This document shows positions 6,203-31,840 of a DNA stretch of 34,252 nucleotides, piece by piece (positions within the stretch are counted from its first letter, which is position 1; each line of letters begins with the position of its first letter). The DNA lies in the IMG/VR virus record IMGVR_UViG_3300025425_001033, positions 1-34,252 of that record. The stretch is one strand, 5' to 3'. A program made the translations under genes and the position numbers. This DNA is from a virus. Under the pieces are notes generated by a model. That model did not search any database. It saw only the letters and a program-made list of their open reading frames with translations, and had not been told where the DNA came from.

Positions 6203-7727
6203 ACATACAGTTATATTACCAACTGCTGGATTAGGTACTCGGATGGGCGATTATACTAAGCATCTTAATAAAGGATTATTGCCGTATAAAGAAAAGCCTG
6301 TTATTGCACATATTATAGATCAATTTCCTATAGACACACATTTTGTTATGCCAGTAGGATACTTAGCAGATCAAATTAAAAATTTTTGTGCTGTTGCATA
6401 CAGCGATAGAAATATTACATTTGTAGATGTTGATTGGGAAAGCAATAAAGCTGGCACCGGTTATTCTTTATTACAATGCAAAGATTATATTAATAGTCCC
6501 TTTTGGTATGTTACCTGTGATACTTTTTTTAACGAACCTGTAGTTACTAATACTCCTACACACGATTGCTATTATGTAAAAAATATTCCGCAAAAAGACA
6601 GTTATTTGTACACAATGTTTAAAACAAATAGTAATATAATACAAGAAATTACATTTAAAAAAGATGCACCTAAAGACTGGACAGCTTGGACAGGATTAAT
6701 GTATATTAATGAATGGGACAATTTCTTTACTAAATTGACCAAACTAGACGATAATGAATTCATACAACTAATACAGCCTGGTACTATGTGTAAAACATTA
6801 AACAGTTGGTTGGATTTTGGCAGTCCTACATTATATCAAACAGCAGTAGCAAAAAGTCAAAAGTTTGATTTTAGTAAAAAAGACGAAGTTACTTATATTT
6901 GTAATAATCGTGTAGTAAAGTGGTGGCACGATAGCACTGTTTCAAAAAAGAAAAACCGTAAGCCTGAATTAAATCCTAAAGTATTCCCTTCAAATTGTTT
7001 AGTTAAAGGGCAGTTTATGGCTTATGATTTTTTTCCCGGGCAGACTTTATACTCGTTTAACAATCCAGTAATATTTAAAGAATTATTAAATTGGCTTGAT
7101 TGCAATGTATGGAAAACTACAGATTATAATTTATCGTCTTCGGCTATGTTATTTTATAAAGACAAGACGCTAGATAGAATAAAAAAGTTCTTAGATAAGT
7201 GTCCTGTATTACAAAATATAACACACGTGAATGGTACAAAGGTAAAACCATATTCAGAATACTTAGATAATATTAATTGGCAGTATCTTTCAACTAATAT
7301 GTTGCCTAGTTTTATTCATGGCGATTTACAGTTTGACAATATTATTATAAACAACTCTGGAGACTTCTTATTAATTGACTGGAGGCATGACTTTGCTGAC
7401 GTAATTGACTACGGAGATATATATTATGACTTAGCAAAAATGGCCGGAGGATTTATAGTTAATTATGCAAGTATAAAAAAACATAATTTTGATTTTGAAA
7501 TAATCGGAACAGAAGTTACTATTAAAATTCCAAATATAGATGAGATTGATACTTACCAACAAATATTAAAAGAATTTGTGTATTTAAAAGGATGGGATTA
7601 TAAAAAAGTTCAACAATTAATACCTATTATATTTTGGAATATGAGTCCGTTACATACAGCACCATTTGATATGTTTTTGTGGTATCTTGGAATAAAACTA
7701 TTTGAAGAGTTAGAAAATGCGCATTAA
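6195..7727 (+). CDS. Bifunctional sugar nucleotidyltransferase - APH/choline-kinase-like phosphotransferase
   Basis: A 510-residue fusion. Residues 1 to about 225 form a nucleotidyltransferase: ILPTAGLGTRMG (residues 7-18) is the NTP-binding G-x-G-T-R-[ML] signature, a TCDTFF strand supplies the metal-binding Asp, and WLDFGSPTLYQTA closes the domain as in sugar-1-phosphate nucleotidyltransferases. Residues from about 235 form an APH/choline-kinase-like phosphotransferase: H375-G-D-L-Q-F-D-N is the catalytic HxDxxxxN motif, and D395 in IDWR is the second metal ligand. The enzyme would phosphorylate a sugar, choline or similar alcohol and activate it to an NDP or CDP derivative. The LicA/LicC and AmgK/MurU pairs show this logic as separate proteins. 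The exact substrate cannot be read from sequence. Confidence 0.82.
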   Translation: MNKHTVILPTAGLGTRMGDYTKHLNKGLLPYKEKPVIAHIIDQFPIDTHFVMPVGYLADQIKNFCAVAYSDRNITFVDVDWESNKAGTGYSLLQCKDYINSPFWYVTCDTFFNEPVVTNTPTHDCYYVKNIPQKDSYLYTMFKTNSNIIQEITFKKDAPKDWTAWTGLMYINEWDNFFTKLTKLDDNEFIQLIQPGTMCKTLNSWLDFGSPTLYQTAVAKSQKFDFSKKDEVTYICNNRVVKWWHDSTVSKKKNRKPELNPKVFPSNCLVKGQFMAYDFFPGQTLYSFNNPVIFKELLNWLDCNVWKTTDYNLSSSAMLFYKDKTLDRIKKFLDKCPVLQNITHVNGTKVKPYSEYLDNINWQYLSTNMLPSFIHGDLQFDNIIINNSGDFLLIDWRHDFADVIDYGDIYYDLAKMAGGFIVNYASIKKHNFDFEIIGTEVTIKIPNIDEIDTYQQILKEFVYLKGWDYKKVQQLIPIIFWNMSPLHTAPFDMFLWYLGIKLFEELENAH

Positions 7728-7739
7728 TGAAAAATGGAG

Positions 7740-7768
7740 TAGACACTCTGAACAAAAGGTGTTATAAT
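7740..7768 (+). promoter_or_regulatory. Sigma70-like promoter, possibly leaderless
   Basis: A TAGACA -35 (7740-7745) and a perfect TATAAT -10 (7763-7768) are separated by exactly 17 bases. The predicted start of transcription, about 7 bases downstream, falls on or next to the ATG at 7774, so the mRNA would have almost no leader. An A-rich AAAGG (7755-7759) lies upstream of the ATG but would not be on such a transcript. Confidence 0.65.
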
Positions 7769-7773
7769 ATATT

Positions 7774-8451
7774 ATGTATGATATTGTATTTATAAGTTAT
7801 CAAGAACCTAGTGCAGACGCTAACTACGCTGCACTAAAGGCTAGATTTCCTATGGCTAAACGTGTACATGGGGTTAAAGGAATACATCAGGCCCATATCA
7901 AAGCAGCAACAAAATGTTTTACTAAGATGTTTTGGATAGTAGACGCAGATGCAATTATATTAGACGACTTTAATTTTGATTACGAAGTTCCTGAGCATCA
8001 ATTAGATCATGTACATGTATGGCGCAGTCTAAATCCTATTAATGATTTAGTATATGGTTACGGGGGAGTAAAATTATTCCCCCGTAAACTAACAATTGAT
8101 ATGGATATTAATAAACCTGATATGACAACCAGTATCTCAAAACAGTTTATAGCAATGCCTGAAGTTGCAAATATCACTGCATTTAATACAGATGAATTTA
8201 GCACATGGCGCAGTGCATTTAGAGAATGTGCAAAACTTGCAAGTAATATAATTGACAGGCAGAATGTAGAAGAGACTGATGCAAGATTAGCAGCATGGTG
8301 TAATGCTACTAGCAGAGATCAACTGTTTGGAGATTATGCTATTCAAGGTGCAAGAGCAGGTCGAAAATACGGTATTGATAATCAATGTAACATTGAAGCA
8401 CTAAAAAAGATTAATGATTTTGATTGGTTGAAAGAACAATTTAATGTCTAG
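7774..8451 (+). CDS. GT-A-like glycosyltransferase-related protein
   Basis: A complete 225-residue paralogue of the truncated protein at the left edge. The N terminus YDIVFISYQEP resembles the first strand of a GT-A fold. FWIVDADAIILDDF around residues 52-65 carries the DAD form of the DxD motif. It is followed by the shared Y-G-Y-G-G-V-K-L-F-P-R-K block, the W-R-S-A-F-R-E block and the A-I-Q-G-A-R-A-G tail. No membrane segment is visible. It sits directly behind a strong sigma70-like promoter and overlaps the following SGNH-like gene by 8 bases. The function is inferred to be glycosyl transfer; the family was not recognised by name. Confidence 0.6.
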   Translation: MYDIVFISYQEPSADANYAALKARFPMAKRVHGVKGIHQAHIKAATKCFTKMFWIVDADAIILDDFNFDYEVPEHQLDHVHVWRSLNPINDLVYGYGGVKLFPRKLTIDMDINKPDMTTSISKQFIAMPEVANITAFNTDEFSTWRSAFRECAKLASNIIDRQNVEETDARLAAWCNATSRDQLFGDYAIQGARAGRKYGIDNQCNIEALKKINDFDWLKEQFNV

Positions 8452-9058
8452 GCTAATAGCGTTTGGTTGCAGCAATACATATGGCCACGGTCTAGAGGAT
8501 TGTCACATGTTACCCGGATTGCCAGGAAAACCAGCAAGTAAACTAGCTTGGCCGAATACTATTGGAAAATTACTTAATTGTTCTGAAATAATTAATCAAA
8601 GCATACTGGGTGCAAGTAATAAACTTATTTGGAAAACAATTGTTGACTTTAATTTTAAACAAGATGATTTAGTTTTTATAAATTGGAGTTATTTTGACAG
8701 GCATTGTTTTTTTCGAGATGATAGCTATCTAAATATTGGATCTTGGATTAAAGATAAACCTAATAAATTTTATTACAAGTTGCTTTATTCAGAAAAAGAT
8801 AGTATTTTAGATTTTTTTAATAGAACAGATCATGCTAAACGATATCTAGATTCATTAACTATTAAAAATTTCCATACAAAAATGAGTAATCTAAAAGATC
8901 GAGAAATTTATAATTTACCAAATTGGTGTTGTGTTAACTTTTTATCTACTTCGTTAGAAAATATAGGATTACTACATCCACTAGCATTAGATGGTATGCA
9001 CCCTGGACAGGGTGCCCACGATCAATTTGCAAATGATTTATATTTAGAAATATATTAA
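8444..9058 (+). CDS. SGNH-like protein with GCS nucleophile motif, copy 4
   Basis: This 204-residue protein begins RLIAFGCSNTYGHG, with G8-C9-S10 at the block I position. It ends with LDGMHPGQGAH, where D183 and H186 form a textbook DxxHP block V. N42 to N60 (INQSILGASN) fits the G/N oxyanion-hole blocks. It is cytoplasmic, with no signal peptide. The gene overlaps its upstream neighbour by 8 bases and ends convergently with the methyltransferase gene, the two stop codons sharing TTAA. Of the four SGNH-like proteins here it has the most complete catalytic set. Whether it is an esterase or an O-acyltransferase on a glycan is unknown. Confidence 0.7.
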   Translation: MSRLIAFGCSNTYGHGLEDCHMLPGLPGKPASKLAWPNTIGKLLNCSEIINQSILGASNKLIWKTIVDFNFKQDDLVFINWSYFDRHCFFRDDSYLNIGSWIKDKPNKFYYKLLYSEKDSILDFFNRTDHAKRYLDSLTIKNFHTKMSNLKDREIYNLPNWCCVNFLSTSLENIGLLHPLALDGMHPGQGAHDQFANDLYLEIY

Positions 9059-9687
9059 AGAGAACTAATTCTTCCTACAAGCATATAACGTATACCCCTA
9101 GTATCTTTTATCTCGTCTTCAAATAATACTTTTGCATGTTCTGGCATTTGGTCTTTAAACTCTTCTAAACTATTAACACAGTTTATATGCCCTTCAATAT
9201 TATACATATTATTTGAAGTAAATGCAAAATATGCTTTAGATGTTTTTAATGCATCTAACGTTTTCATAGAAGGCATGTGTTCGCAAGAAGGATTAATTAT
9301 AAGATCAGCGTTCATAATTCTTCCGTGTCTTTTTTTGTCAAACACATCACTTGCTATATAATCAACATTATTATAATGACTAAACAACCTGTTTTTTGCT
9401 ATTTTTAAAACTTGTTCGTCTAGATCAATACAAGATATACGGCTCACCTTATCACAGAGTCCAGGGATAAGAATACTTCCATACCACGATCCAAAAATTA
9501 CCACTTCTGATTTTTTAGTAACAATATTTAATTTACCAATGTAATCTAAAACTTTTGTTTTTGATTTAAATTGATTATCACTAAATGAATCAATAACATC
9601 TTGCGAACTCTCTGGTTTATCTTTTATTAAATTTAGAACATTTTTAAATAAATCTAAACTAACGGTGTTATTATCTATGTCAATCAT
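9055..9687 (-). CDS. Class I SAM-dependent methyltransferase
   Basis: A 210-residue Rossmann-type methyltransferase. Motif I is VVIFGSWYGS (residues 62-71), a variant of the glycine-rich SAM loop. The acidic end of strand 2 follows (CIDLDEQVL, residues 86-94), then YIASDVFD for the adenine contact and ADLIINPSCEHM for the strand-4 region. It is the last gene of the leftward operon and overlaps the carbamoyltransferase gene by 8 bases. In this setting it would methylate the molecule made by the operon, which is inference. There is no target-recognition domain and no clear DNA methyltransferase motif such as DPPY, so a small-molecule or sugar substrate is more likely than DNA. Confidence 0.8.
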   Translation of the reverse strand: MIDIDNNTVSLDLFKNVLNLIKDKPESSQDVIDSFSDNQFKSKTKVLDYIGKLNIVTKKSEVVIFGSWYGSILIPGLCDKVSRISCIDLDEQVLKIAKNRLFSHYNNVDYIASDVFDKKRHGRIMNADLIINPSCEHMPSMKTLDALKTSKAYFAFTSNNMYNIEGHINCVNSLEEFKDQMPEHAKVLFEDEIKDTRGIRYMLVGRISSL

Positions 9688-11191
9688 TGTCTTTCCTAAC
9701 TATATAATCATCAATTACTAGTATGTCTAATCCGCATTTTTTAAATGTAGCAACAGCATCTTCGGGAGTTTCAACAATAGGCTCTTGACAGTTGAAGCTA
9801 GTGTTAAGCAACATAGGAACACCTGTAATCTTATAAAACTCGTTAATCAAATCATAATAACGTTCATTAAACTCTCTAGTTACGGTCTGTATACGTGCCG
9901 TACCGTCTATGTGTGTCACACCTGGAATAGCCGCTGACGTAACTGGCATAATACGACTCATGTATGGTGATGGTTGATTAGTAGCAAAATATTCTTGATA
10001 ATGTTCTTCTAGTACACTAGGAGCAAATGGACGAAAGTCTTCACGCAGTTTAATCTTACTGTTTATAATATCTTTTATATTAGGATTGCGTGGATCAGCA
10101 AGTATGCTACGATTGCCTAGTGCTCTATTACCGCTTTCGCTAGCACCCTGGAACCAACCAACAATTGCACCATTTGCAATTGCACCAGCAACTTTGGTGT
10201 AGATTTCATCCATTGGCTTTTGTTGATATTGTAACCCTTCAAAGATACTAGAGCTAACCGTATATTCTTTTCCTGCATATACACTAGGTACATGGACATT
10301 ACCATTTAAAATATAATCAGCATGCATATATGTACCAAGCGACTGTCCTTCGTCACCAGCAGCGGGGGGAACGTGTATATTTGTATAATGTTTTGTAAAT
10401 TCTTCATTTATATAACCGTTATACGCAACGCCTCCTGCGATACAAAGATTATCAGATGTTTTAAGAGGATATACATGTTTCTTAACAAGTTCAAACGTAA
10501 CTTGCTGCAATGTAAACGCTACATCTTGTTTAGGCACACGTTTTAGAATATCTTTTGCACCATCTGGAAGTCTATGATTGGGATTTTCTAAATACTGATG
10601 AATCATAGTATAAATTTCAGTATTATGCTTTCCAAAGCCTACTAAGCCCATAACCTTACCAGCATCGAGATATCCAAAACCGACATCCTGTGCTAGTCTA
10701 TTCCATAGTCCGCCTATTGAGATTTTGTTGTTTAAGTTAGTAATTGTACCGTGTTTGTCAATAAAGATGCAGTTAAATTGCCATCCTCTGCCATCGATAG
10801 CAAGTATATCGCTTTCTTTATATCCTGAACTTAGATATGCATAGGTAGCATGACTTTGATGGTGATCAATATAATAGTAGCTATCTGTATGTAGTCTATC
10901 CCACAAGTTAGTTGGAGTAAACTCTAAAAAATTAGTATCGGGTAATGTTTCCTGAAGCAAGTCAATTACAAATTCTTGTCCTAGATTAGAAACAGTAAAC
11001 GCAAACACATGATCTTTATTATAGTTAGGCACAAAATGATCATGAAAAAACTCTCTGCTATAAGTAATGTCGTGCGGGTTTTCACGATTAAGATTATGCT
11101 TGCGACGGCTATGCCGTTCTACTTGATTGTGAAATACACCATCGTACGTGTTATGATCATGTATGTTTACTGCTATAGAAAAGATTTTCAT
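9680..11191 (-). CDS. NodU/CmcH-family carbamoyltransferase
   Basis: A 503-residue O-carbamoyltransferase. The N-terminal Kae1-like domain has DHHQSHA (residues 109-115), the conserved metal/substrate-binding His block, then AIDGRG and the glycine-rich CIAGGVAYN (250-258). The C-terminal YrdC-like part carries GWFQGASESGNRALGNRSIL (345-364), ADPR, RPFAPSV (387-393) and LLNTSFN (461-467). The family uses carbamoyl phosphate and ATP to carbamoylate hydroxyls on nodulation factors, antibiotics and sugars, through a carbamoyl-adenylate. Length and motifs are near normal, although the N-terminal segment lacks the usual strong H-D-x-S motif (IHDHNTY instead). It is coupled by 4-base overlap to the radical SAM gene upstream. 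The acceptor is unknown, most likely the product of this operon. Confidence 0.93.
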   Translation of the reverse strand: MKIFSIAVNIHDHNTYDGVFHNQVERHSRRKHNLNRENPHDITYSREFFHDHFVPNYNKDHVFAFTVSNLGQEFVIDLLQETLPDTNFLEFTPTNLWDRLHTDSYYYIDHHQSHATYAYLSSGYKESDILAIDGRGWQFNCIFIDKHGTITNLNNKISIGGLWNRLAQDVGFGYLDAGKVMGLVGFGKHNTEIYTMIHQYLENPNHRLPDGAKDILKRVPKQDVAFTLQQVTFELVKKHVYPLKTSDNLCIAGGVAYNGYINEEFTKHYTNIHVPPAAGDEGQSLGTYMHADYILNGNVHVPSVYAGKEYTVSSSIFEGLQYQQKPMDEIYTKVAGAIANGAIVGWFQGASESGNRALGNRSILADPRNPNIKDIINSKIKLREDFRPFAPSVLEEHYQEYFATNQPSPYMSRIMPVTSAAIPGVTHIDGTARIQTVTREFNERYYDLINEFYKITGVPMLLNTSFNCQEPIVETPEDAVATFKKCGLDILVIDDYIVRKDND

Positions 11192-12027
11192 ACAGATTCT
11201 TGCTCTACCTTTAGGATTTCAATGATGCGTTCTCGTTGTGCTTCTGGACGTTTTGGAATAATATCAAAACAACGTTCGCAATACTTTTCGTAGTCAAACA
11301 ATTGATAGTTCATCATCTTATCAATGTTTTCTTTAGTAACATCAAACTGTCTAGAACCGTTGATTACTTTTCTACTACAGTGACGAATTTTCTTAATTTC
11401 AAAATCAAATACCGGAACTAGCGGAAACTTAGCACAAACACGACGATCAATTTCGGGTGCTTGTACAGGTGTATGGTCTTTAAAGAAGTCAGGGGATCTT
11501 GAATTGTATTCCTTAAACTCGGTGTTCTTATGTTTGAGATATGACAAGTCGTGTTTATCTCGATAGTTAAAGTAACCAGGAGTCTCGATAATTAAGTTAT
11601 AATTGTTTAGATCATTTGGTTCAAAGAAATCATAATTGCCTAACTTCTCAATTCGATCTTCATAAAAGTCTAATACCAAATGTTCGATGTAAATGATTTC
11701 TGGATCTTCTAATACTTCGGGGTAAAACTTACGAATTAAAGAATTTGAAAGAACTTGGACAACAAGATTAGGATGCTTTTTAATTTCAGCAATAATTTCT
11801 TGTAAGTTTTTAACAAGAGCAGGTTCGCCTCCTAATAAACAAATGCGTGTCTTATACGGAGCAAGACCTTCTAAGATAGTTCTTACGAAATCCATATCTA
11901 CATCTAGATTCCGCATTTCTAATGTCCATGCAGTACAATAGTGACAACTCTTATTACAACTCTTTGTCATATAAAAGTCTACAGTACGATATTCTGAACC
12001 TTTTAAATCTTCAAGTGTCAATGCCAT
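11188..12027 (-). CDS. Radical SAM protein with C-terminal SPASM-like cysteines
   Basis: The 279-residue protein has the radical SAM motif C24-x3-C28-x2-C31 after the strand RTVDFYMTKS, and LLGGEP at residues 64-69. The C-terminal part has C198, C217 and the pair C250-x2-C253, consistent with an auxiliary iron-sulfur cluster like those of SPASM/twitch enzymes. It starts within the end of the upstream nitroreductase gene (17-base overlap) and its last 4 bases overlap the carbamoyltransferase gene. The chemistry is not predictable; SPASM enzymes act on peptides, sugars and alcohols. Beside nitroreductases, an aminotransferase and a carbamoyltransferase it is likely one step of the same pathway. 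Confidence 0.88.
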   Translation of the reverse strand: MALTLEDLKGSEYRTVDFYMTKSCNKSCHYCTAWTLEMRNLDVDMDFVRTILEGLAPYKTRICLLGGEPALVKNLQEIIAEIKKHPNLVVQVLSNSLIRKFYPEVLEDPEIIYIEHLVLDFYEDRIEKLGNYDFFEPNDLNNYNLIIETPGYFNYRDKHDLSYLKHKNTEFKEYNSRSPDFFKDHTPVQAPEIDRRVCAKFPLVPVFDFEIKKIRHCSRKVINGSRQFDVTKENIDKMMNYQLFDYEKYCERCFDIIPKRPEAQRERIIEILKVEQESV

Positions 12028-12745
12028 TAATAGTTACCTTTGTATATTTTTTAAAAGTTGGAAATTTCCAGTGTTCATCTAATTCGCCTGTTCTAAACTT
12101 CTCTGGTACATCTTTATTTAACACGTCTGTATGTTGAGTACGTTCAAGATGGCTATTTGGAAATCCTACACCTACAAGTAATTTAGGATTTTGTTTTATT
12201 CCTAGTATATCACGTATCGGTTTTGTATCTAATGCTGAACAAATACCTGTTGTATACCCTAACAATCCTGCTGAAAGTATAAGTTCACCAACAGAAATCC
12301 CCATTGAGTACGCGACTTGTTCTCCGTATACTTTTGCCGCATTACTATTTGGATTTTCTTTAGCAGCTCTATGTTGACTTCCTCGAGTGTCTCCGTGCTC
12401 TGCAACATATACAAATAGTGCATTAGCATATACTTGCGAGTTGGTTACTGATTTGGCATCATTCTGTATAAAGACATCGTTTTCTACACTAAAACTTTCG
12501 TCTTGATCTTGTTGATCTCTAATCATTGTAAACTTTTTTGTATGACTGTATATTTGTTTAATTATATTCTGGTCAGTGTATACGTGTAAACTATAGTGTG
12601 TTTCGTTTTGTTTTGTTGGAGAATTAATAACAGTATGTATAAGTGTATCTAAATCTTCTTGAGGTATAGATTTAGTTAGGTCATAATTACGTTGTGCCCT
12701 GTTAGTAATTTTAGAAGCATTTTTTATTTGATCTCTTATATCCAT
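12011..12745 (-). CDS. Nitroreductase-like flavoprotein, third of three
   Basis: A 244-residue protein with the nitroreductase fold signature. An N-terminal QRNYDLTKSIPQEDLDTLI helix is followed by the FMN-binding loop P-T-K-Q-N, and later AYSMGISVGELILSAGLLGYTTGICSA matches the dimer helix and flavin pocket. LLVGVGFPNSH is the usual C-terminal strand. It is the most diverged of three consecutive paralogues that share P-[ST]-K-[QN]-N. The overlap with the previous gene is 10 bases. The family reduces nitro groups, quinones or enones with NAD(P)H and FMN, or oxidises small molecules as in flavin destruction (BluB). The substrate here is unknown. Confidence 0.82.
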   Translation of the reverse strand: MDIRDQIKNASKITNRAQRNYDLTKSIPQEDLDTLIHTVINSPTKQNETHYSLHVYTDQNIIKQIYSHTKKFTMIRDQQDQDESFSVENDVFIQNDAKSVTNSQVYANALFVYVAEHGDTRGSQHRAAKENPNSNAAKVYGEQVAYSMGISVGELILSAGLLGYTTGICSALDTKPIRDILGIKQNPKLLVGVGFPNSHLERTQHTDVLNKDVPEKFRTGELDEHWKFPTFKKYTKVTINGIDT

Positions 12746-13401
12746 TTTAATATCTCTTCCAAATTTGGTTTAAGGTCATCAGCAAATCTTAATTCAGTTA
12801 CTTTATTTCTTCTTGGTACATCACAGTAGCCCATAGCCCCAATTAATATGGGATTGTGTTTAATTATTGGAAGTGTAGACCATTTTTCAACTTTACTAGG
12901 AAAGCAACCGGTGTAATTAACTTGCATTCCTTTTTCTAAAGCAAACGCAGATAAGTTAGCCGCAAACAATCCTACTTCAATTGCGGCAGGTCTTATTACA
13001 TCAGATAGTTGTGATTCATGCATTTGTTCATAGTGATTATTTTCATTATCGATAGTTTTTTGTACAAACGGATTAGGGTTACCTACTCGTTGACTAAAAA
13101 TAATTGTGTAGGGAGCGTCTTTTAAATAAAGGAAGTTTGGATTATCACCTTCCTCTGTATGCCCTTTAGTAGCATTTTGATTATGAGATTTTTTGTTTCC
13201 TCTAGCCAAATTTAATAAAGCAAGTTTTTCTTGTTTAGCATTGGGTCCTAGTATAGTAATTTCATAAGGCATAAAGTTATTCTTTGACGGCGTTACTTTC
13301 CAGGCTTTAAATAATATTTCTTCTATGTCACTCTGAGGCGGAACATCTTCTTTAAATCGGTATACATGTTTTCTTGAATCTAAAAGTTGTAACATATCCA
13401 T
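12736..13401 (-). CDS. Nitroreductase-like flavoprotein, second of three
   Basis: The 221-residue protein begins LLDSRKHVYRFKEDVPPQ, the R-[KR]-x-x-R-x-F opening of nitroreductases, and has the FMN loop P-S-K-N-N at residues 38-42. YLKDAPYTIIF and the helix AAIEVGLFAANLSAFALEKGMQVNYTGCF follow, then HNPILIGAMGYC. The start overlaps the upstream gene's stop by one base, and the end overlaps the downstream nitroreductase by 10 bases, so the three are translated as a coupled set. FMN-dependent reduction or dehydrogenation is expected of the fold. Why three diverged copies are kept together is unclear; nitroreductases are obligate dimers, so heterodimers are possible (inference). Confidence 0.85.
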   Translation of the reverse strand: MDMLQLLDSRKHVYRFKEDVPPQSDIEEILFKAWKVTPSKNNFMPYEITILGPNAKQEKLALLNLARGNKKSHNQNATKGHTEEGDNPNFLYLKDAPYTIIFSQRVGNPNPFVQKTIDNENNHYEQMHESQLSDVIRPAAIEVGLFAANLSAFALEKGMQVNYTGCFPSKVEKWSTLPIIKHNPILIGAMGYCDVPRRNKVTELRFADDLKPNLEEILKWI

Positions 13402-14189
13402 TATTTGTTAAACCTTACTACATCATCTAAATTAGGTTTGTTTTCCCAGTGTATATCATTAGGATTCATACTATTACTAGCAAAATAATCATCAACATCG
13501 GCTACATGTCCTATTTGTACAATTATAATAGGAGACTCAGTGATTTCAGGTAAACTACTCCAATCTAGCCCGTTTTTATTTTTGTCTTTACTGTATTCTC
13601 CACTATTACCTTTCCAAACCCATTCGGGAAAAGATTTAATATACGAAATTGCTAAGTCATTTTCTAAACAAAGACCGGCTAAACATTTTATAAACATACC
13701 AATCTCAACACATGCTAGTGCTTTATTAGCATTTCCTCTAAATCTTTTTGGATCAATTTGAGTAAATCTATTGTAATCGTTGTGTAGCTTAGAATATTCT
13801 TTTATAAAGTTATTTGCTTCGCATAGTCTTTGTTCAAATACTAATATCCAAGGTGATATACGCATATCATTGCCTTCGTCGTCTAATACATAATCTTTAA
13901 CATTAATAGTACCTGCTGCTGATTTAATCATACCGTCTTTATTTTCACTGTCCATGTGATTGACTGAACCAGTTTTATATAAGGAACAAATTTGTCCAAT
14001 AATTTGTTTCTTTTCTAGATCATTAGGTCCATATGCATGAATCTTGAATGGAAACATATTTTGCTTTGACGGAGCAATTTTCATTGTTCGTTCTAATATA
14101 TCCTGTATTGTTTCTTTTGACGGCAACCTTTTTTGGTCCCAGGCCGCTCTAATTTGTCTTCTTTTGCCAAAAAGTTTTTCAATACTCAT
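13401..14189 (-). CDS. Nitroreductase-like flavoprotein, first of three
   Basis: The longest of the three paralogues, at 262 residues. KRRQIRAAWDQKRLPSK is the N-terminal FMN-phosphate-binding segment and A-P-S-K-Q-N-M-F-P-F (about residues 38-47) the flavin loop. The central part has an insertion rich in N, D and K, then ALACVEIGMFIKCLAGLCLENDLAISYI as the dimer helix and SPIIIVQIGHV as the last strand. The start ATG overlaps the aminotransferase stop by 4 bases. A late-promoter-like CATAAATA lies just upstream, inside the aminotransferase gene. Its closest relative in the window is the second copy, with which it shares the PSK-N-P-[FY] loop. Confidence 0.82.
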   Translation of the reverse strand: MSIEKLFGKRRQIRAAWDQKRLPSKETIQDILERTMKIAPSKQNMFPFKIHAYGPNDLEKKQIIGQICSLYKTGSVNHMDSENKDGMIKSAAGTINVKDYVLDDEGNDMRISPWILVFEQRLCEANNFIKEYSKLHNDYNRFTQIDPKRFRGNANKALACVEIGMFIKCLAGLCLENDLAISYIKSFPEWVWKGNSGEYSKDKNKNGLDWSSLPEITESPIIIVQIGHVADVDDYFASNSMNPNDIHWENKPNLDDVVRFNK

Positions 14190-15259
14190 ATTTCTCTCCT
14201 AACAATATTTATGACCTGCTCTATTTCGTCATTTGTAAGCCAAGCATGTATGGGCAGTGATAAAACTGTATTAGAGGCCGTCTTAGACTGCGTACAAGCG
14301 TCTCTCCTGCACTCTAAGCCGTCATACATACTGTTTGCACTCAACGGTGTTTCGTAGTGTATACTAGCATTTAACGCATTCTTTACACGTTTACGGGTAT
14401 CTTTATCTTCAAATCGCACTACATACTTATGGTAGTTATGATTAAGTCCATTGGACATTAGCTGTGTTACTACGGGCAACTCTGCAAACGCTTGATTGTA
14501 TTTGTGTGCTATTTGTTGTCTACGTTCTTGATTACGATCAGCATGACGTAATCGTAGGTTAATTATTTCCGCATTAAGCACATACATACGACTGTTGTAT
14601 CCAATCATACTAAAGTCTTTATCTTTGCCATGACGCCTAGTCATCCTAACACGTTTAGCAATGTCTTCGTTATCAGTTAGTACAACTCCGCCACCATTTA
14701 TACCTGCAATTACTTTATTTGAATTAAAACTATATACACTACAGTCTCCGATAGTACCTGCCCTTATATTATGTAAACTACTACCCAAACTTTGTGCGGC
14801 ATCTTCAATAAACAGTATATTGTTATCTTTGGAGAACTGTTGTATTTCTGTAGTGTCAGTCATATTACCAAATAGGTGCGGATATATAATTGCTTTAACT
14901 TTATTACTATACATACGTTTGATGCTATTTAAACTAATATGATATGAATCTAAATCAATATCACAAAATACAGGAGTAGCACCTACCATACTTGCACAAG
15001 CTGAACTTGATATCCAACTAAAGTCTGTTACTAGAACTTCATCACTGGATCCTATGCTGTGTGCTAACAATGTAAAATGTAGTGCGTCTGTAGCACTTGC
15101 CACACTAACACAATACTTGCGACCCACGCGGTCTGCAAAGTCCCGTTCAAATTGCTCGTTGTTTTCATAATTCATTTGACTCATAAATCGATCAAATGCT
15201 TCTAAATAGTCTTGTTTGTTTTCTTGGTACTCTCGGTCCCATCCATCATATGCAGTCAT
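14186..15259 (-). CDS. DegT/DnrJ/EryC1/StrS-family PLP aminotransferase
   Basis: The 357-residue enzyme is a sugar-aminotransferase type I fold. The PLP phosphate-binding ASATDALHF segment lies at residues 54-62, the aromatic WISSSACA stacking region near 82-89, the PLP-pyridine Asp in IEDAAQSLG (D153), and the Schiff-base lysine in SFNSNKVI (K182) followed by GGGVVLT. The family transaminates NDP-keto-sugars with glutamate or glutamine to give amino sugars for O-antigens and antibiotics. It starts 1 base after the upstream radical SAM stop and overlaps the first nitroreductase by 4 bases. Loss of the lysine, which would make it a dehydratase or regulator, is not seen. It is the strongest hint that the operon makes or edits a sugar. 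Confidence 0.93.
   Translation of the reverse strand: MTAYDGWDREYQENKQDYLEAFDRFMSQMNYENNEQFERDFADRVGRKYCVSVASATDALHFTLLAHSIGSSDEVLVTDFSWISSSACASMVGATPVFCDIDLDSYHISLNSIKRMYSNKVKAIIYPHLFGNMTDTTEIQQFSKDNNILFIEDAAQSLGSSLHNIRAGTIGDCSVYSFNSNKVIAGINGGGVVLTDNEDIAKRVRMTRRHGKDKDFSMIGYNSRMYVLNAEIINLRLRHADRNQERRQQIAHKYNQAFAELPVVTQLMSNGLNHNYHKYVVRFEDKDTRKRVKNALNASIHYETPLSANSMYDGLECRRDACTQSKTASNTVLSLPIHAWLTNDEIEQVINIVRREI
14206..14213 (-). promoter_or_regulatory. Possible T4-type late promoter (CATAAATA)
   Basis: CATAAATA on the minus strand ends 17 bases upstream of the first nitroreductase ATG. It is identical to the motif before the tail fibre gene. It lies inside the coding sequence of the aminotransferase, and such 8-mers arise by chance in AT-rich DNA, so confidence is low. 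Confidence 0.3.
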
Positions 15260-15260
15260 T

Positions 15261-15995
15261 TTAATCGCTTCGTCCTAGTCTATGCCATTCTAATAATCTT
15301 GATGATTTATGTGCCCATAACTCTTTTTTAACACGTTCTTGAGTGTGCTTTTTATCTGGACTTGTAAGTTGAAAATCAACATTACTTCTAAGTAAGCGAT
15401 TGTTAGGATTGAATCCTCTGTTTGTGTTTATAAGTAACAAACTAAAGTCCTCTTCTTTTGCAATCTCAATAGCGCGGTCTATTTCGTGTTCATTGTAACC
15501 AAATATAATATATTGCCAAACAATTAGTTGTCCTAGGTCTCTGCCCTGTTTCATACGTTTCCAAACATCTTGGAAGTTAGAACCTACGCGATACAATTCG
15601 CTTTTTTCGTCAATACCGTCGACACCAAAGTACCAAGCATTTTCGCCTACACCGTAACTATATGCTTCGTCCCACCAAGCATCACTTTTCCCACTACCCA
15701 CTGTAGCAATTCTAACTCTCTTGCCTTGACCGTTACACATTTTTAAAAGATTTAAAAAATTAGGATGATAGATAGGATCAGATATTTGCCCACAAAACGT
15801 AACGCCTTCTGTATAGTAATCAAAGATCTTTTGAAAGTTTTCTTCAGTAAGATCAAATGATCGACGAATTTGATCTTGACTAATGGTTTTTTGTCTAATA
15901 CACTGAGGACACCTAAATATACAACGATGCGATGCATCAATGTTAGGTCTTACTTTACGTTGATGTATTACGTATTCATCGGTTATTCTTGGCAT
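15261..15995 (-). CDS. Radical SAM protein without C-terminal cluster domain
   Basis: The 244-residue protein has C25-x3-C29-x2-C32 after a short basic N terminus, and the strand VTFCGQISDP takes the place of the usual GGEP. Strand VRIATVGSG and WYFGVDG follow the radical SAM barrel order. It is short for a SPASM enzyme and ends soon after the barrel, with no further Cys pair. The gene just upstream encodes a 118-residue Cys-rich protein of SPASM type that overlaps this gene by 20 bases. Together they look like a radical SAM barrel and its auxiliary cluster domain made as two chains (inference). The target is unknown. Confidence 0.85.
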   Translation of the reverse strand: MPRITDEYVIHQRKVRPNIDASHRCIFRCPQCIRQKTISQDQIRRSFDLTEENFQKIFDYYTEGVTFCGQISDPIYHPNFLNLLKMCNGQGKRVRIATVGSGKSDAWWDEAYSYGVGENAWYFGVDGIDEKSELYRVGSNFQDVWKRMKQGRDLGQLIVWQYIIFGYNEHEIDRAIEIAKEEDFSLLLINTNRGFNPNNRLLRSNVDFQLTSPDKKHTQERVKKELWAHKSSRLLEWHRLGRSD

Positions 15996-16332
15996 TTTCG
16001 ATTAGTTCCTTCATTTCAATTTTTTCTTCAGCTCTAACCTCATCCATGTCTACATCTATTCCGCATTTCTTTTTACACATATAGGATGCCTTCTCAGGAG
16101 TAGTTAATAACATCTGAAAAAAGTTTTCCCATCGGTCTGATGTAAATATGTCTTCTAACTTATCATTATTTGATAACAACAACTCTTCATCTTTAAGACC
16201 ACATGCTTTAACGTGTCGATATACGGGAGGGTCATCTAACCAGCAACACGGCAGCATAAATCCGTCTGATGTGTATGCTGCTCCTTTATTGTCTCTTGCA
16301 GTATAGTTCAAGCATTTAGGGTTTATTTTCAT
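15976..16332 (-). CDS. Stand-alone SPASM-like Cys-rich protein
   Basis: The small protein of 118 residues has C7, the pair C29-C30 in GFMLPCCW, C44 and the pair C86-x3-C90. The segment D-G-x-x-x-P-C-C-W, followed by a helix with W-x-x-F and a C-x3-C-G end, is the pattern of the auxiliary cluster (SPASM/twitch) region normally fused behind a radical SAM barrel, as in phage radical SAM proteins. Here no barrel is present. The start ATG overlaps the upstream GT-like gene stop by 4 bases, and the end overlaps the radical SAM gene by 20 bases. It is probably the partner or cluster carrier of that enzyme. Confidence 0.7.
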   Translation of the reverse strand: MKINPKCLNYTARDNKGAAYTSDGFMLPCCWLDDPPVYRHVKACGLKDEELLLSNNDKLEDIFTSDRWENFFQMLLTTPEKASYMCKKKCGIDVDMDEVRAEEKIEMKELIENAKNNR

Positions 16333-17180
16333 TTAAATTTCTTTATTGCATTTATTATAGGAATAACATCTGGCTCTTTAATATTTCGCTTCCAGTAAAC
16401 GCTGCCACCGTCTACTATTGTTTTATCTCTAAGGTAAACTACATCCTTACCGTAGTACTTGCACTCTTGAAAAATTCTCGGAGCCGGATCAAATGTGTCT
16501 TTAGTGTACACATAGGTTTCAAACATTCCCATTAAATTTTCTACAGGAGCAAATACATTATTATTGCTTACATGTATATATCCTTCGTTGTAGGTTAAAA
16601 TGCCGTGGTCTGGATAATCTGCAATTACTTTTTGAATAGACGCATAGTATTTGTCGTTAGTACCTAAAAACAAATGTTTAAATTTGATGTCGTTAATATG
16701 CGGTTTGTAGATACTAAAATTAATAGTCTTTTCAAAATGTTCACCTACTCCGTTAGGATAGACTTCGGTGTCGCAAAGATCAACTATTTGTTTTGGATTA
16801 TAAAACTTAACAGCGTTGGGATATCCTTCAATATGATTTTCTGAATACACACTTATAACTTTGCTGCTAAATAATTTGCGTAATGATATCTGTTGCGCTG
16901 GGGTATAATCATTAAAACTTTGCCAACTTAGAGTCATCATACTTCTGCCCATAATAAGTGTAACATCATTATCTGAAGGCACATATGTATCTAAAAACAA
17001 ACGATTACAATGAATGTATTTGCGTGTGATAGAATTTATATAGTCAGTCTGATTATAATGTCTGTGACAAATAATAACAACTCGTGCAGGATAGCCTGCA
17101 TTGTTAAGCATATCACAATATTCATAGCTGTAGTATAACAGCCCGTCAACTGGTTTACTTGAAACTACAATATTAATCAT
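16329..17180 (-). CDS. Putative GT-B-type glycosyltransferase
   Basis: The first gene of the leftward operon encodes 283 residues. The first strand MINIVVSSKPVDGLLYYSYE and NAGYPARVVII resemble the N-terminal Rossmann domain of GT-B enzymes. The C-terminal part has KHLFLGTNDKYYASIQKVI, then FETYVYTKDTFDPAPRIFQECKYYGKD-like sequence around residues 220-246, where E239 in the P-R-x-x-x-E-x-x-x-x-G-K pattern matches the nucleotide-sugar-binding helix of GT-B proteins. No membrane segment is seen. A Shine-Dalgarno AAGGAA precedes the ATG, and the transcript from the minus-strand promoter at 17230-17258 would have a leader of about 43 bases. The sugar donor is unknown. Confidence 0.6.
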   Translation of the reverse strand: MINIVVSSKPVDGLLYYSYEYCDMLNNAGYPARVVIICHRHYNQTDYINSITRKYIHCNRLFLDTYVPSDNDVTLIMGRSMMTLSWQSFNDYTPAQQISLRKLFSSKVISVYSENHIEGYPNAVKFYNPKQIVDLCDTEVYPNGVGEHFEKTINFSIYKPHINDIKFKHLFLGTNDKYYASIQKVIADYPDHGILTYNEGYIHVSNNNVFAPVENLMGMFETYVYTKDTFDPAPRIFQECKYYGKDVVYLRDKTIVDGGSVYWKRNIKEPDVIPIINAIKKFK

Positions 17181-17202
17181 AAACTGTTCCTTTTAATTTA
17201 GG

Positions 17203-17231
17203 TTGACGAATTGTATCATACATAGTATAAT
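17203..17231 (+). promoter_or_regulatory. Sigma70-like promoter for the rightward operon
   Basis: TTGACG (17203-17208), a 17-base spacer and TATAAT (17226-17231) on the plus strand. Transcription would begin near 17238, leaving a leader of about 30 bases before the ATG at 17268. The -10 overlaps the -10 of the opposing promoter. Confidence 0.75.
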
Positions 17232-17258
17232 TATACTATCATAATAAAGAAAAGTCAA
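17230..17258 (-). promoter_or_regulatory. Sigma70-like promoter for the leftward operon
   Basis: On the minus strand, TTGACT (17258-17253), a 17-base spacer and TATAAT (17235-17230). Transcription would begin near 17223 and lead into the ten-gene leftward operon. The two -10 boxes are fused in the palindrome TAGTATAATTATACTA, so both promoters cannot be bound at once. Confidence 0.75.
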
Positions 17259-17267
17259 GACACGAAT

Positions 17268-17855: not shown

Positions 17856-18572
17856 ATGGAAAATACAACAAAGCTATTAATTAATCATACTTTTAGTCAT
17901 TTAATGCTGATACCTGCATTTATGTACGGCGAGTGGTGGATGTTCCTTGCAGCTTTTGCATGGTGGTATATAATTGCAATCGTTGCTATTAGTGGTGGCT
18001 ACCATAGATACTATAGTCATAAATCCTTTAGTGCTGGACGATGGTATGATTATGCAGTTAATGTATTAGGAATATTTAGTGGTGCAGGACCTGCAATGAC
18101 TTGGACAGGAACACACCGCCAGCATCATGCATACAGCGACACTGAAGATGATCCTCATAGCTATACCCGCAAGGGCTGGTTTGCAGTTTATGTAAACACA
18201 TGGGGATACGATTTTAAAATCAAACGTCGATTTATTAAACGCCTATTGAGTGATAAACTGTTACGATGGTTTTACACTAATTATTTTAAACTTAATATTG
18301 CTATTATTGTTGTGTTTACACTAATCGATCCGCTGTTTATGGTATTTGGTTATGCGCTGCCTGTGGTATTTGCATTCCATGGTTACGGATTACTAAATGT
18401 GTTGGGTCATCGCGACGGCAAACCTAATAACACCTGGGTAGGTAATATATTAACAGCAGGCGAAGGCTGGCATGCTAACCATCATAAACGAGGCGGCGAC
18501 TATAGAATTGGACAGACGTGGTGGCAATTGGATCCTACTGCTTGGTTTATAAGAGTAATTAGGACTGATTAA
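17856..18572 (+). CDS. Fatty acid desaturase (delta-9 acyl desaturase type)
   Basis: A 238-residue membrane di-iron desaturase. All three His boxes are present: H50-x4-H55, H87-x2-H90-H91 and H206-x2-H209-H210, plus H185 in LGHRDG, which matches the extra ligand of acyl-CoA/acyl-lipid delta-9 enzymes. Hydrophobic segments at about 20-46, 67-82, 146-165 and 166-183 give the expected paired membrane hairpins. It is a little shorter than cyanobacterial DesC proteins (about 270), mostly at the N terminus. It would add a cis double bond to host acyl chains in the membrane, needing electrons from ferredoxin or cytochrome b5. Upstream of the ATG an AAAGGG lies 12 bases away and TATAAT touches the start codon. 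It is coupled by TAATG to the next gene. Confidence 0.93.
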   Translation: MENTTKLLINHTFSHLMLIPAFMYGEWWMFLAAFAWWYIIAIVAISGGYHRYYSHKSFSAGRWYDYAVNVLGIFSGAGPAMTWTGTHRQHHAYSDTEDDPHSYTRKGWFAVYVNTWGYDFKIKRRFIKRLLSDKLLRWFYTNYFKLNIAIIVVFTLIDPLFMVFGYALPVVFAFHGYGLLNVLGHRDGKPNNTWVGNILTAGEGWHANHHKRGGDYRIGQTWWQLDPTAWFIRVIRTD

Positions 18573-19234
18573 TGCGTGAGTCATGTTTAATAAAAGCCTC
18601 CAGGAGGAGCAGAGTAAACGGCACAGGACCGCGCAGACATGAAATGCTAACTCACGGTATTGTCACTGACACTGTACCGCAAGCAGTAATTAATGAAATA
18701 TTACAAATTGCAACTAGCTATACAGGTAATGATTTAGGCGGGGACAATTATCAACTTTCGCAACACTGTGATGTAAAGAATGTATTCACATCAAGCGAAA
18801 CATATAAGCAAATTATACTTCAAGAAAGTACGGCAGAAAATACAATTGATGAAAGGAACTATCTACATTGGCGGAATGATATAAGCACTATTGCTATAGA
18901 AAACTATCTTACAACAGCATTTGTACAGCCCTATAGGACCCGTATAAGCGTTATGCATGGTGGTAATGAGTTAAACTATCACATAGACACTGATACAAGT
19001 GTACTGTGTCGTGTGCAAATACCGGCTCAAACAACAGGAAGTTTGTTTCAGTGGAAAACAAAAATAGAAGAAGTTAGTTTAGATATGAAATTAGGCGAAG
19101 CATACTTTGTTAATACAGGTTGGTTGCACAGAGTAATTAACCCAACAGATAGTATTCGTGTCGTTTTATTATTTGGAATAGACTACAACAATCTGCCAAA
19201 CAAAGAAAGTTTGTTAGTAGACGGTACACACTGA
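18572..19234 (+). CDS. Fe(II)/2OG dioxygenase-like protein (aspartyl/asparaginyl hydroxylase-like)
   Basis: In the 220-residue frame, NYHIDTDTS gives H137-x-D139 and WLHRVINPTDSIRVVLLF gives the distal H186 and R196, which together form the iron facial triad and 2-oxoglutarate arginine of cupin-type dioxygenases. The GEAYFVNTGWLH segment resembles aspartyl/asparaginyl beta-hydroxylases. The start is in doubt. ATG 18572 (overlapping the desaturase stop) gives a basic, GC-rich N terminus unlike the rest. ATG 18644 gives MLTHGIVTDTV, which reads as a natural first strand. The substrate is unknown. Confidence 0.75.
   Translation: MRESCLIKASRRSRVNGTGPRRHEMLTHGIVTDTVPQAVINEILQIATSYTGNDLGGDNYQLSQHCDVKNVFTSSETYKQIILQESTAENTIDERNYLHWRNDISTIAIENYLTTAFVQPYRTRISVMHGGNELNYHIDTDTSVLCRVQIPAQTTGSLFQWKTKIEEVSLDMKLGEAYFVNTGWLHRVINPTDSIRVVLLFGIDYNNLPNKESLLVDGTH
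18575..18656 (+). other. GC-rich segment with long-range complementarity
   Basis: CGTGAGT (18575-18581) is complementary to ACTCACG (18650-18656). Just inside, CATG (18582-18585) can pair with CATG (18638-18641). Between them lies a stretch of about two-thirds GC (18596-18637) in otherwise AT-rich DNA, with CCTCC next to AGGAGG, a perfect Shine-Dalgarno that has no start codon at the right distance. The segment spans the two candidate starts of the oxygenase gene. A structured leader is possible; I recognise no known riboswitch or ribozyme. Confidence 0.35.
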
Positions 19235-19271
19235 AACTATTATAGATATTGAATATTGGTAATTTATTAAA

Positions 19272-21059
19272 ATGAAAACACAAATCTTGCTAGGTTCAAT
19301 TTCTTTTAGTTCTTTTGAGTGGATACCGTATCCTGTCGGATGTCTTATTAGTTACGCTAAAAAAGATAGTCGTATTAATGATTTATATGAGTTCATGGAA
19401 CCTGAATATAGAAGTAAGAGTTTAGACAACGCAGACTTTCATAATAATCTTAAAAAAGCAGATATATTAGGTTTGACAAATTGGGTGTGGAATCAAAATT
19501 ATAATGATAGGATTGCAAAATTATATAAGCAGTACAATCCTAACGGTCTTGTAATTTACGGCGGAGTTAATGTTCCAGAAGATCCTAGAGCTGCAAAAGA
19601 ATACGCTAAAGTTAGAGATTTTGTAGATATATTTTTTTGTGGCCCCGGAGAAGAAAATTTTAAAAACTTTCTTCTACAATATCCTAACACTGGATTACAT
19701 AATGTAAAAGGTACATTTACACACGTTGAGAATAATGTAGTAGAGGATAGATATCAGATTACTAAGATTGATATCCCAAGTCCCTACCTAGATGGCATAT
19801 TTGAAAATATTTTTGAAAAAGAAGCAGGTAGTATTAGTGCAATTTTTGAGACTAACAGAGGATGTCCGTATGCGTGTGCATTCTGTGATTGGGGAGGTAT
19901 GACTCGTAGTAAAATTATAAAAGCAGATCCTCAATTAGTTAAAGATACTATTTCTTATATTATGAGAAAAGAGTCTGTTAACAATATATACATAGCAGAC
20001 TCGAACTTTGGAATATTTCCAAAAGATGTAGAATATACACAACATCTGATTGACGAAAAAAAGAACCGTGTAAATGATATCAATCTTACTATGGGCGGCT
20101 TTGCAAAAAATGGCACTAAGTATGTAGAAGAAATTATGAGAATGATGCATGATCATTTCAATGCATATCACGGAAGAAAATACATTAAGCTAAGTTTTCA
20201 AAGTCATGACCAAACAACACTTGACACTGTGCAGCGTTCTAATATAGATAACACAAAGTTATTTCCTATGATGGAGCGTTTTAAAGCAGATGGTGTACAA
20301 GTAGATGCTGAAATGATAATTGGTATGCCGGGCGACAATCAAGAACGCTGGTTACAAACAATTCAAACAAATATGGATTTAGGCATAAATCATCAAAAAA
20401 GTTTTACATTATATGTAGTACCTAACACTCCGATGGCATCGCCTGAGTATCAAGAAAAGTATAAAATAAAAACTAAGAAGGTATTGGTTCCATATGAGCT
20501 TGATCATATAAAAAGTAAAGAATATCACAATAAAAGAATTAACGGGGAAACAGTTACAACTACTTGTAAGTTTGACGACCCTACTGAATACCAAACACTA
20601 GAGTTTATATACGAGTGCTTTACATTTGATAGTAAAGAACTTATGAAGATTTATGATGTGTGGTTTTGGTTTAATACATTGTATAATGCCAAGGTAGCAA
20701 GGAAATGGATGTTAGCATCTAATAAAACAGCTAAAGAGCAATATAGCGATTTTATTACTGCTATAGATACTGGTAAGATGCCGTTTTGGAAAGATTTATT
20801 AGAACAGTTTAGATATGCAGTATGGAACACAATAGCTAAACCAGAACCTATAACTAAAGTAGAAACCTTATATCTTGTTAATTTTGTTACTAAGTTTGTG
20901 TTTAGAGGAAACGAACTGATAGATATATATGATAACAAAGAACTTGCAGTAAAAGAACTTAGGCAAGTTTATCCAGATATTGATTTTAATCATTTTAGAA
21001 AAATACATCAGTTAAAAGATAAATTGCGATTGTATTTTGTAGCAGCAGAAGTTGTATAA
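19272..21059 (+). CDS. B12-binding-domain radical SAM protein
   Basis: A 595-residue class B radical SAM enzyme. Residues 1 to about 150 form a Rossmann-like cobalamin-binding domain: PYPVGCLISYAKK, ADILGLTNWVWN, NGLVIYGGVNVPEDP and FCGPGEENF are the usual strand and loop landmarks. The classic DxHxxG is absent, so cobalamin would be bound base-off or not at all. The barrel motif is C198-x3-C202-x2-C205-D-W-G in ETNRGCPYACAFCDWG. Later, AEMIIGMPGD matches the G-x-P-G-[DE] strand of HemN/MiaB-type barrels. A C-terminal helical region of about 170 residues follows. Such enzymes methylate unreactive carbons or phosphorus, or rearrange rings. It is coupled by TAATG to the TauD-like gene downstream. 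Confidence 0.9.
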   Translation: MKTQILLGSISFSSFEWIPYPVGCLISYAKKDSRINDLYEFMEPEYRSKSLDNADFHNNLKKADILGLTNWVWNQNYNDRIAKLYKQYNPNGLVIYGGVNVPEDPRAAKEYAKVRDFVDIFFCGPGEENFKNFLLQYPNTGLHNVKGTFTHVENNVVEDRYQITKIDIPSPYLDGIFENIFEKEAGSISAIFETNRGCPYACAFCDWGGMTRSKIIKADPQLVKDTISYIMRKESVNNIYIADSNFGIFPKDVEYTQHLIDEKKNRVNDINLTMGGFAKNGTKYVEEIMRMMHDHFNAYHGRKYIKLSFQSHDQTTLDTVQRSNIDNTKLFPMMERFKADGVQVDAEMIIGMPGDNQERWLQTIQTNMDLGINHQKSFTLYVVPNTPMASPEYQEKYKIKTKKVLVPYELDHIKSKEYHNKRINGETVTTTCKFDDPTEYQTLEFIYECFTFDSKELMKIYDVWFWFNTLYNAKVARKWMLASNKTAKEQYSDFITAIDTGKMPFWKDLLEQFRYAVWNTIAKPEPITKVETLYLVNFVTKFVFRGNELIDIYDNKELAVKELRQVYPDIDFNHFRKIHQLKDKLRLYFVAAEVV

Positions 21060-31751: not shown

Positions 31752-31840
31752 ATGTGTTTCCTTAGTTTATCGATTTGTTCATCTTTGTGTACGCCCTGCC
31801 TAAGGGCGTTAAGCGCATCGTCATCAAGTCCCCCAGGCAT
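31748..31840 (-). CDS. Possible 30-residue coupled peptide downstream of queE
   Basis: An ATG at 31840, inside the last 17 bases of queE, opens a 30-residue frame starting MPGGLDDDALNALRQG and ending DKLRKHI. Its stop overlaps the ATG of the next gene. The 72-base stretch between queE and the next gene has no other use, and the sequence reads as one acidic helix. The larger frame in this phase, up to 32242, is a shadow of queE. The evidence is position and composition only. Confidence 0.4.
   Translation of the reverse strand: MPGGLDDDALNALRQGVHKDEQIDKLRKHI

Follow-up and report, generated by a model that had tools for sequence, protein, structure and literature searches.

What would a phage do with ten tightly packed genes for radical S-adenosylmethionine (radical SAM, or rSAM) enzymes, nitroreductase-like flavoproteins, an aminotransferase, a carbamoyltransferase and a methyltransferase, and do these genes form one fixed pathway? 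The question is raised by IMG/VR virus record IMGVR_UViG_3300025425_001033, of which we analyzed positions 1 to 34,252 (34,252 nucleotides; hereafter, the window). The operon consists of ten open reading frames (ORFs), all on the minus strand and running from 17180 to 9055, with successive overlaps from g10 to g1 of 4 and 20 bases, a 1-base gap, and then 4, 1, 10, 17, 4 and 8 bases. An earlier interpretation made from the letters alone (the sequence-only reading) had reported these ten genes on one strand and in this order, with overlaps of 1-20 bases and one 1-base gap, and we reproduced each of these points. It had also treated the ten genes as a single fixed pathway, which did not hold: five of them form a scaffold, and the other five, a SPASM/rSAM pair and three nitroreductases, are modules that can be swapped. 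We lean toward interpreting the whole as a mobile, modular cassette of biosynthetic genes with which marine myoviruses would make an unusual, decorated amino sugar and attach it during infection.

A fixed scaffold with interchangeable inserts

The ten proteins were assigned to families using Pfam, NCBIfam and PHROG profiles, and are given here from g10 to g1 with the abbreviations used below:

16329..17180, minus strand: g10 (GT), scaffold gene 1, predicted glycosyltransferase of GT-B fold (GT4-like), from a structure model and alignment
15976..16332, minus strand: g9, putative SPASM/twitch-like Fe-S protein that stands alone as one half of a split radical SAM/SPASM enzyme, from conserved cysteines
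15261..15995, minus strand: g8, core radical SAM protein paired with g9, interchangeable module (Pfam Radical_SAM, 4.6e-8)
14186..15259, minus strand: g7 (AT), scaffold gene 2, predicted sugar aminotransferase of the DegT/DnrJ/EryC1/StrS type (Pfam, E = 1.8e-83)
13401..14189, minus strand: g6, nitroreductase-like flavoprotein 3, variable module, from homology to g5
12736..13401, minus strand: g5, nitroreductase-like flavoprotein 2, variable module (Pfam, 2.4e-6)
12011..12745, minus strand: g4, nitroreductase-like flavoprotein 1, variable module (Pfam, 1.1e-12)
11188..12027, minus strand: g3 (R2), scaffold gene 3, radical SAM enzyme, from alignment and Pfam
9680..11191, minus strand: g2 (CB), scaffold gene 4, O-carbamoyltransferase of NodU/TobZ/GdmN type with both domains, from Pfam and the match to GdmN/TobZ
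9055..9687, minus strand: g1 (MT), scaffold gene 5, predicted class I SAM methyltransferase, from a structure model

How often these genes recur together was measured in IMG/VR by three independent scans, one each with R2, the GT-B protein and the methyltransferase as anchor, and the ORFs of the loci were typed by BLAST and profiles. The R2 scan yielded 96 viral relatives, of which 80 were kept, and the 90%-non-redundant set numbered 37. Within this set, CB came after R2 in 34 of the 35 loci with room and MT in 33 of 33, and R2 was preceded by the DegT gene in 28/28 loci and by the GT-B gene in 23/28. The bias that comes with R2 as anchor is removed by reciprocal anchoring on GT and MT: the 58 GT-anchored loci that extend at least 7 kb downstream contained AT (52), R2 (48), CB (47) and MT (40), and MT-anchored loci (n = 49) contained CB (47), R2 (46), AT (43) and GT (40). 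A single scaffold order, GT-AT-R2-CB-MT, runs through 35 architectures among 44 loci, some of which are close relatives. Inserted are SGNH hydrolase genes, nitroreductase-like genes (0-4 per locus) and rSAM/SPASM pairs, whose two members come in either order; most inserts lie between AT and R2 (97) or GT and AT (55), and few between CB and MT (11) or R2 and CB (8). Exceptions are L010/L011, where the halves of the cassette lie on opposite strands (GT-SP-rS-AT versus R2-CB-MT, SP and rS being the SPASM-like and rSAM genes), and the g10 loci L162, L164, L168 and L169, where a GT-NTR-SP-rS set (NTR, nitroreductase-like) occurs without AT or CB.

The sequence-only reading had suggested looking for the same order of families in other marine phages, and the five-gene order does recur in many independent contigs. 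Neither of the outcomes it had named as damaging, unlinked genes or lost active sites in relatives, was seen; linkage and catalytic motifs are kept. The CX3CX2C cluster motif is present in 58/58 R2 relatives and in 69/69 sequences assigned to the g8 family, the SFxxxK motif with the pyridoxal phosphate (PLP) lysine in 58/58 DegT relatives, and the HHxxHA motif in 57/62 carbamoyltransferase relatives.

The same reading had placed the ten genes under one promoter. The candidate is part of a pair:

17181..17267, both strands: divergent sigma-70-like promoter pair with a common palindromic -10 (TATAATTATA), from sequence matches

The minus-strand match (TTGACT-17-TATAAT, 17258-17230; 11/12 consensus) lies 49 nt upstream of the first ATG, that of g10, and would drive the operon; the plus-strand match (TTGACG-17-TATAAT, 17203-17231; 11/12) is divergent from it. 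A near-consensus sigma-70-like match ahead of g10 is therefore present, but the single promoter stays a prediction from sequence; promoter-like matches taken together barely exceed the shuffled expectation (66 versus 52.6). A strong promoter match precedes g10 in the window, L002, L013, L071 and L079; it is not general among relatives, since g10 is not the first gene in every operon.

Movement between phage lineages

The window group belongs to the PA5oct-like jumbo phages. The terminase of its largest contig (G003, 261 kb) shares 55% identity with those of PA5oct-like Pseudomonas jumbo phages, and the ATPase and metallopeptidase/VWA-like genes of the window itself also point to this group. 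The ATPase occurs in most window-group records and is absent or weakly matched in records on the side of Mosig, a cultured, T4-like SAR11 phage of the Kyanoviridae whose host is Pelagibacter HTCC1062. Mosig carries the scaffold at 53-56% identity for GT, AT, R2 and CB and 48% for MT, and the terminases of G003 and Mosig are only 33% identical. A third lineage with the cassette, the T4-like G013, has a terminase 74% identical to that of phage C48C1 and 44% identical to that of Mosig. By these comparisons, the cassette crosses lineages, being found in both PA5oct-like jumbo phages and T4-like marine phages.

An exchange has left a direct trace in L001, a contig of another phage, where positions 4700-10960 match the window from 9055 to ~15250 over 6.2 kb at ~99.9% identity, including 5,306 bp without a difference. 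Identity switches just inside the start codon of the DegT gene and in the last codons of the methyltransferase gene; outside the block it is ~67-80% upstream, and the downstream sequences are unrelated. These limits suggest that seven genes, from DegT to MT, moved recently as a block. Chimeric assembly was considered as well: it would take two independent misjoins, which seem unlikely because the switch points sit just inside gene ends and little common sequence lies beyond them.

A matching host cluster, which the sequence-only reading had listed as potential support, did not emerge: the genome-contig collection yielded, at the sensitivity used, three contigs from metagenome-assembled genomes (MAGs), all with the cassette, and no bacterial version. 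Two of the three are plainly phage, as judged by tail-like neighbor genes. Such genes mark L083 and L085, assigned to Rhodobiaceae and Gammaproteobacteria MAGs by binning, as phage fragments and so as viral contamination. Across IMG/VR and the genome contigs, R2 occurred in viral or virus-like contigs only.

These data also bear on whether the genes are a chance pile-up of host-acquired auxiliary genes without joint function. The region is a hypervariable island of assorted genes (PMC7029224), as such a pile-up would be, but the five-gene order is kept across lineages, the DegT-to-MT block was transferred together, and the ratio of nonsynonymous to synonymous changes (pN/pS) is 0.08-0.24 for g2, g3, g4 and g6-g10 relative to homologs at 75-92% protein identity. 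The operon, as represented by these eight comparable genes, is thus under purifying selection. Because of this selection and the recurrence of the order in many independent contigs, a random assortment is contradicted, and we give it almost no weight.

Enzymes and candidate products

Profiles recovered most of the families named in the sequence-only reading (DegT, carbamoyltransferase, two radical SAM enzymes and two nitroreductases), and fold comparison recovered its GT-B protein and methyltransferase; its SPASM-like protein and third nitroreductase scored under the Pfam cut-offs. Within the scaffold, g7 is predicted to be a nucleotide-sugar aminotransferase of the DegT type, and its closest solved relatives are mostly sugar aminotransferases, including QdtB, perosamine synthase and WbpE. 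The two Pfam Carbam_trans domains of g2 (N, PF02543, 1e-17; C, PF16861, 6e-67) are above cut-off and correspond to the Kae1-like N domain with metal motif and the YrdC-like C domain of the NodU/CmcH family. The nearest relatives of g2 are GdmN and TobZ (E about 1e-49 to 1e-54), and it scores well below the cut-off of the NCBIfam NodU equivalog NF041651 (131.7 bits versus 1000). Pfam Radical_SAM matches two operon proteins at about 5e-9 and 5e-8, the latter being g8, and in an 18-member alignment of R2 the CX3CX2C motif, GGEP and four further cysteines (198, 217, 250 and 253) are invariant.

The two remaining scaffold proteins were placed by structure. Pfam gives no call for g10 and a PDB sequence search no match, and its assignment comes from fold search only: the AlphaFold model, built from an alignment of 26 relatives (predicted local distance difference test (pLDDT) score of 91), superimposes on PimA over its full length (252 residues, Z 15.9, root mean square deviation (rmsd) 4.0; Foldseek E 3e-6), and D231-P-A-P-R and E239 are invariant among the 26 members. 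The model predicts a GT-B glycosyltransferase. For g1, which Pfam does not call as a methyltransferase, the model (25 relatives, pLDDT 94) gave 819 Foldseek matches in the PDB at E<=0.001, with NodS first (2.4e-8) and nearly all of the top 50 being SAM methyltransferases or close fold relatives; it is accordingly modeled as a class I methyltransferase with a Rossmann-type fold.

The DegT type, the GdmN/TobZ-like CB, the leading GT-B gene, a GT8-like gene in Mosig and the position of the cassette in the pelagimyophage host recognition cluster (HRC) together argue for an amino-sugar pathway. The GT8-like gene lies next to MT in Mosig (Mosig_00091; E 3.5e-5, just under cut-off), and in L077 a GT8 gene (PF01501) is above cut-off. 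The Mosig cassette sits between the tail fibers and VrlC. We also count in favor of this reading the SGNH genes of some cassettes and the finding of the MetaGPA study that carbamoyltransferases of unmodified contigs adjoin glycosyltransferases (PMC8670742). The decorated amino sugar proposed earlier thus stands as the best-supported chemistry, as an interpretation of these enzymes. Likewise, the new phage biosynthetic pathway proposed earlier is borne out as a conserved multi-gene unit in marine phages, but 'biosynthetic pathway' is still an inference.

For substrate, reaction order, acceptor and benefit, we infer the following. The DegT enzyme would transaminate a keto-sugar nucleotide taken from the host; R2 could perform a radical rearrangement, a deoxygenation or a C-C step on the sugar; the NodU/TobZ-type enzyme would add a carbamate to a sugar hydroxyl; methylation, on N or O, would fall to the last enzyme, g1; and transfer of the sugar onto a glycan or glycolipid would be the task of the GT-B enzyme. 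Interchangeable tailoring steps may be supplied by the nitroreductase-like flavoenzymes, the SGNH hydrolases and the split rSAM/SPASM pairs, so that each phage would arrive at a different final decoration, as with O-antigen clusters. The acceptor is most likely a host surface glycan, in which case the receptor would be altered and superinfection blocked; the phage's own fibers are a less likely acceptor.

Several points weigh against this assignment. Among the ten operon proteins, Pfam and NCBIfam detect no family that makes keto-sugar nucleotides, and the core operon lacks a nucleotide-sugar dehydratase, epimerase or pyrophosphorylase; we therefore liken the cassette to an amino-sugar or surface-glycan cluster and do not file it as a complete one. 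The GT-B fold of g10 names neither donor nor acceptor. Against solved structures, the R2 profile aligns with viperin-like ones in the radical SAM core only, which would not indicate a substrate, and in the g1 model search NodS is merely first among many near-equal methyltransferase matches. We know of no standard role for nitroreductase-like enzymes in amino-sugar pathways, and SAR11 surface glycans are poorly known.

The fold matches of g10 include T4 AGT, a DNA glucosyltransferase (Z 13.4), and phage NodU-type enzymes can carbamoylate 5-hydroxymethylcytosine (5hmC) (PMC8670742). With a QueE gene also in the window, the cassette might instead modify nucleic acid, producing a hypermodified base carbamoylated as in 5-carbamoyloxymethylcytosine, with the GT-B enzyme acting as T4 AGT does. 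We consider this improbable. ThyA/dCMP hydroxymethylase (PF00303) was found in 0/18 records with the cassette, among them Mosig (141 kb) and the 261-kb contig, in a search in which many records are fragments and the control was detected in 9/14. According to the MetaGPA study, positions W408, G421 and R423 of TobZ are discriminating for the 5hmC carbamoyltransferase (PMC8670742). That enzyme and CB are both phage members of the NodU/TobZ superfamily, but they differ at all three positions in sequence alignment (W/G/R in the window, I/C/T in the proven 5hmC enzyme), the motif W..G.SE.G.RALG.R is present in 55/62 CB relatives, and no 5hmC-making gene was found with the cassette. Tailoring modules that vary between phages would also be unexpected for a genome-wide base modification. 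A role in 5hmC-DNA is thus disfavored. The QueE-like radical SAM gene itself (31824-32696; phrog_2076) suggests that phages of this group may carry a 7-deazaguanine DNA modification.

Among the variable modules, g9 has five cysteines (7, 29, 30, 86 and 90) that are invariant across 17 homologs, in the pattern G-x4-CC and C-x3-C, but is called only SPASM-like because its match to PF13186 is below cut-off (14.2 versus 21.5 bits, E 0.05). A g9-type gene adjoins an rSAM gene in most architectures. Against the PF00881 cut-off of 23.5 bits, g4 (48.9) and g5 (28.3) score above and g6 below (17.3, E 0.0056); g6 is homologous to g5 (E 4.6e-19) and retains the PSKQN motif. The g5 profile retrieves solved nitroreductases and a BluB-like flavoprotein. 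Members of this family would bind flavin mononucleotide (FMN) and show NAD(P)H-dependent redox activity; an N-terminal PS-K-N motif is retained in most relatives of g5 and in all of those of g6.

Such split rSAM and SPASM proteins resemble the maturases of ribosomally synthesized and post-translationally modified peptides (RiPPs), pathways in which nitroreductase-fold dehydrogenases are also found. With fiber-like genes nearby (in Mosig, and by sequence at 23631-24809 of the window), the rSAM/SPASM and nitroreductase-like enzymes could act on a peptide or a tail fiber. We regard this as doubtful: the genes are packed and overlapping, the window operon showed no short ORF resembling a precursor (ORFs <60 aa in relatives were not systematically searched), and neither a sugar DegT nor a NodU-type carbamoyltransferase is a RiPP enzyme.

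Multiple flavoenzymes and radical SAM modules are also typical of secondary-metabolite tailoring, TobZ and GdmN are antibiotic enzymes, and aminotransferases for scyllo-inosose and inositol are among the matches of g7. It is accordingly conceivable that the product is a small molecule (redox-active or aminocyclitol/nucleoside-like) that diffuses and acts on the host or on rival phages, but we think this unlikely given the GT-B gene in 40/49 MT-anchored loci and the GT8-like neighbors, and in the operon we saw no polyketide synthase, non-ribosomal peptide synthetase or cyclitol synthase and no gene for export or resistance. Returning to the amino-sugar reading, a tentative extension of it is combinatorial biosynthesis, in which a five-enzyme chassis with plug-in rSAM/SPASM and flavoenzyme modules would, through shuffling of the modules, yield phage-specific and chemically new carbamoylated amino-sugar products, on the surface or released, and would be exchanged between jumbo and T4-like marine phages. 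The cassette also offers radical SAM enzymes that have yet to be studied.

Other genes were noted in passing. A fused twitch + rSAM protein at 758-2149 of the window (NF033640, 347 bits versus 170) is of interest beside the split g8/g9. A large protein with a weak QueC-like PP-loop region, a radical SAM domain and a SPASM-like tail lies within the cassette in several phages (for example, L046:4493-6802), and in L059 a FeS_assembly_P gene (SufT/MIP18-type; 9810-10178) lies between R2 and CB and fits a need for Fe-S assembly. Beside the window operon, on the plus strand, are four SGNH-hydrolase-like genes (3883-6202 and 8444-9058, by sequence reading). Elsewhere in the window are a fusion of a MobA-like nucleotidyltransferase and an APH-type kinase (6195-7727; weak Pfam matches), reminiscent of LicC/LicA, and a second, divergent auxiliary cluster (17856-21859) of a fatty-acid desaturase, a B12-binding-type radical SAM protein and a TauD-like oxygenase.

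Relation to known systems

The sequence-only reading had found the gene set unlike any known phage module. That claim was too strong: the Mosig copy lies inside the HRC, whose 2020 description reports glycosyltransferases and, in passing, radical-SAM gene cassettes, and proposes alteration of the host O-chain and superinfection exclusion as functions (Zaragoza-Solas 2020, PMC7029224). The cassette differs from that description in having nitroreductase, carbamoyltransferase and aminotransferase genes, which a text search of PMC7029224 does not find mentioned, and in occurring outside pelagimyophages, in PA5oct-like jumbo phages. The deposited Mosig record annotates the cassette genes singly, and the announcement of the phage does not discuss them. 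We did not find the combination described in the literature, in a search short of most subscription papers and bioRxiv. If true, the amino-sugar reading would explain part of the hypervariable islands beside phage fiber genes, and with Mosig and its host in culture the product of the island is directly testable.

Among phage carbamoyltransferases, the Nol-like enzymes of T4-like cyanophages belong to the same PHROG as g2 (phrog_1601, E 2.7e-111) and are about 30-38% identical to it among the matches listed; these cyanophages gave no R2 or g10 match at this sensitivity. Phage HTVC008M likewise lacked a match to R2. Outside phages, the cassette resembles rhizobial nodS-nodU in that a NodU-type CB adjoins a methyltransferase whose top fold match is NodS, both rhizobial enzymes acting on an amino sugar. 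It differs in lacking a Nod backbone synthase and in its low sequence identity, as reflected in the NodU model score given above. With desosamine-type pathways (DesI, a DegT enzyme; DesII, a radical SAM enzyme; DesVI, a methyltransferase), the cassette shares the logic of DegT, radical SAM, methyltransferase and glycosyltransferase, but g7 scores 142.7 against a DesI cut-off of 650, DesII is not among the best NCBIfam matches of R2, and the cassette adds a carbamoyltransferase and nitroreductases. Phages alter host glycans with one or few genes, and phage glycan modification as such is known; what is new here is a five-gene scaffold combined with interchangeable split rSAM/SPASM and nitroreductase-like modules across lineages.

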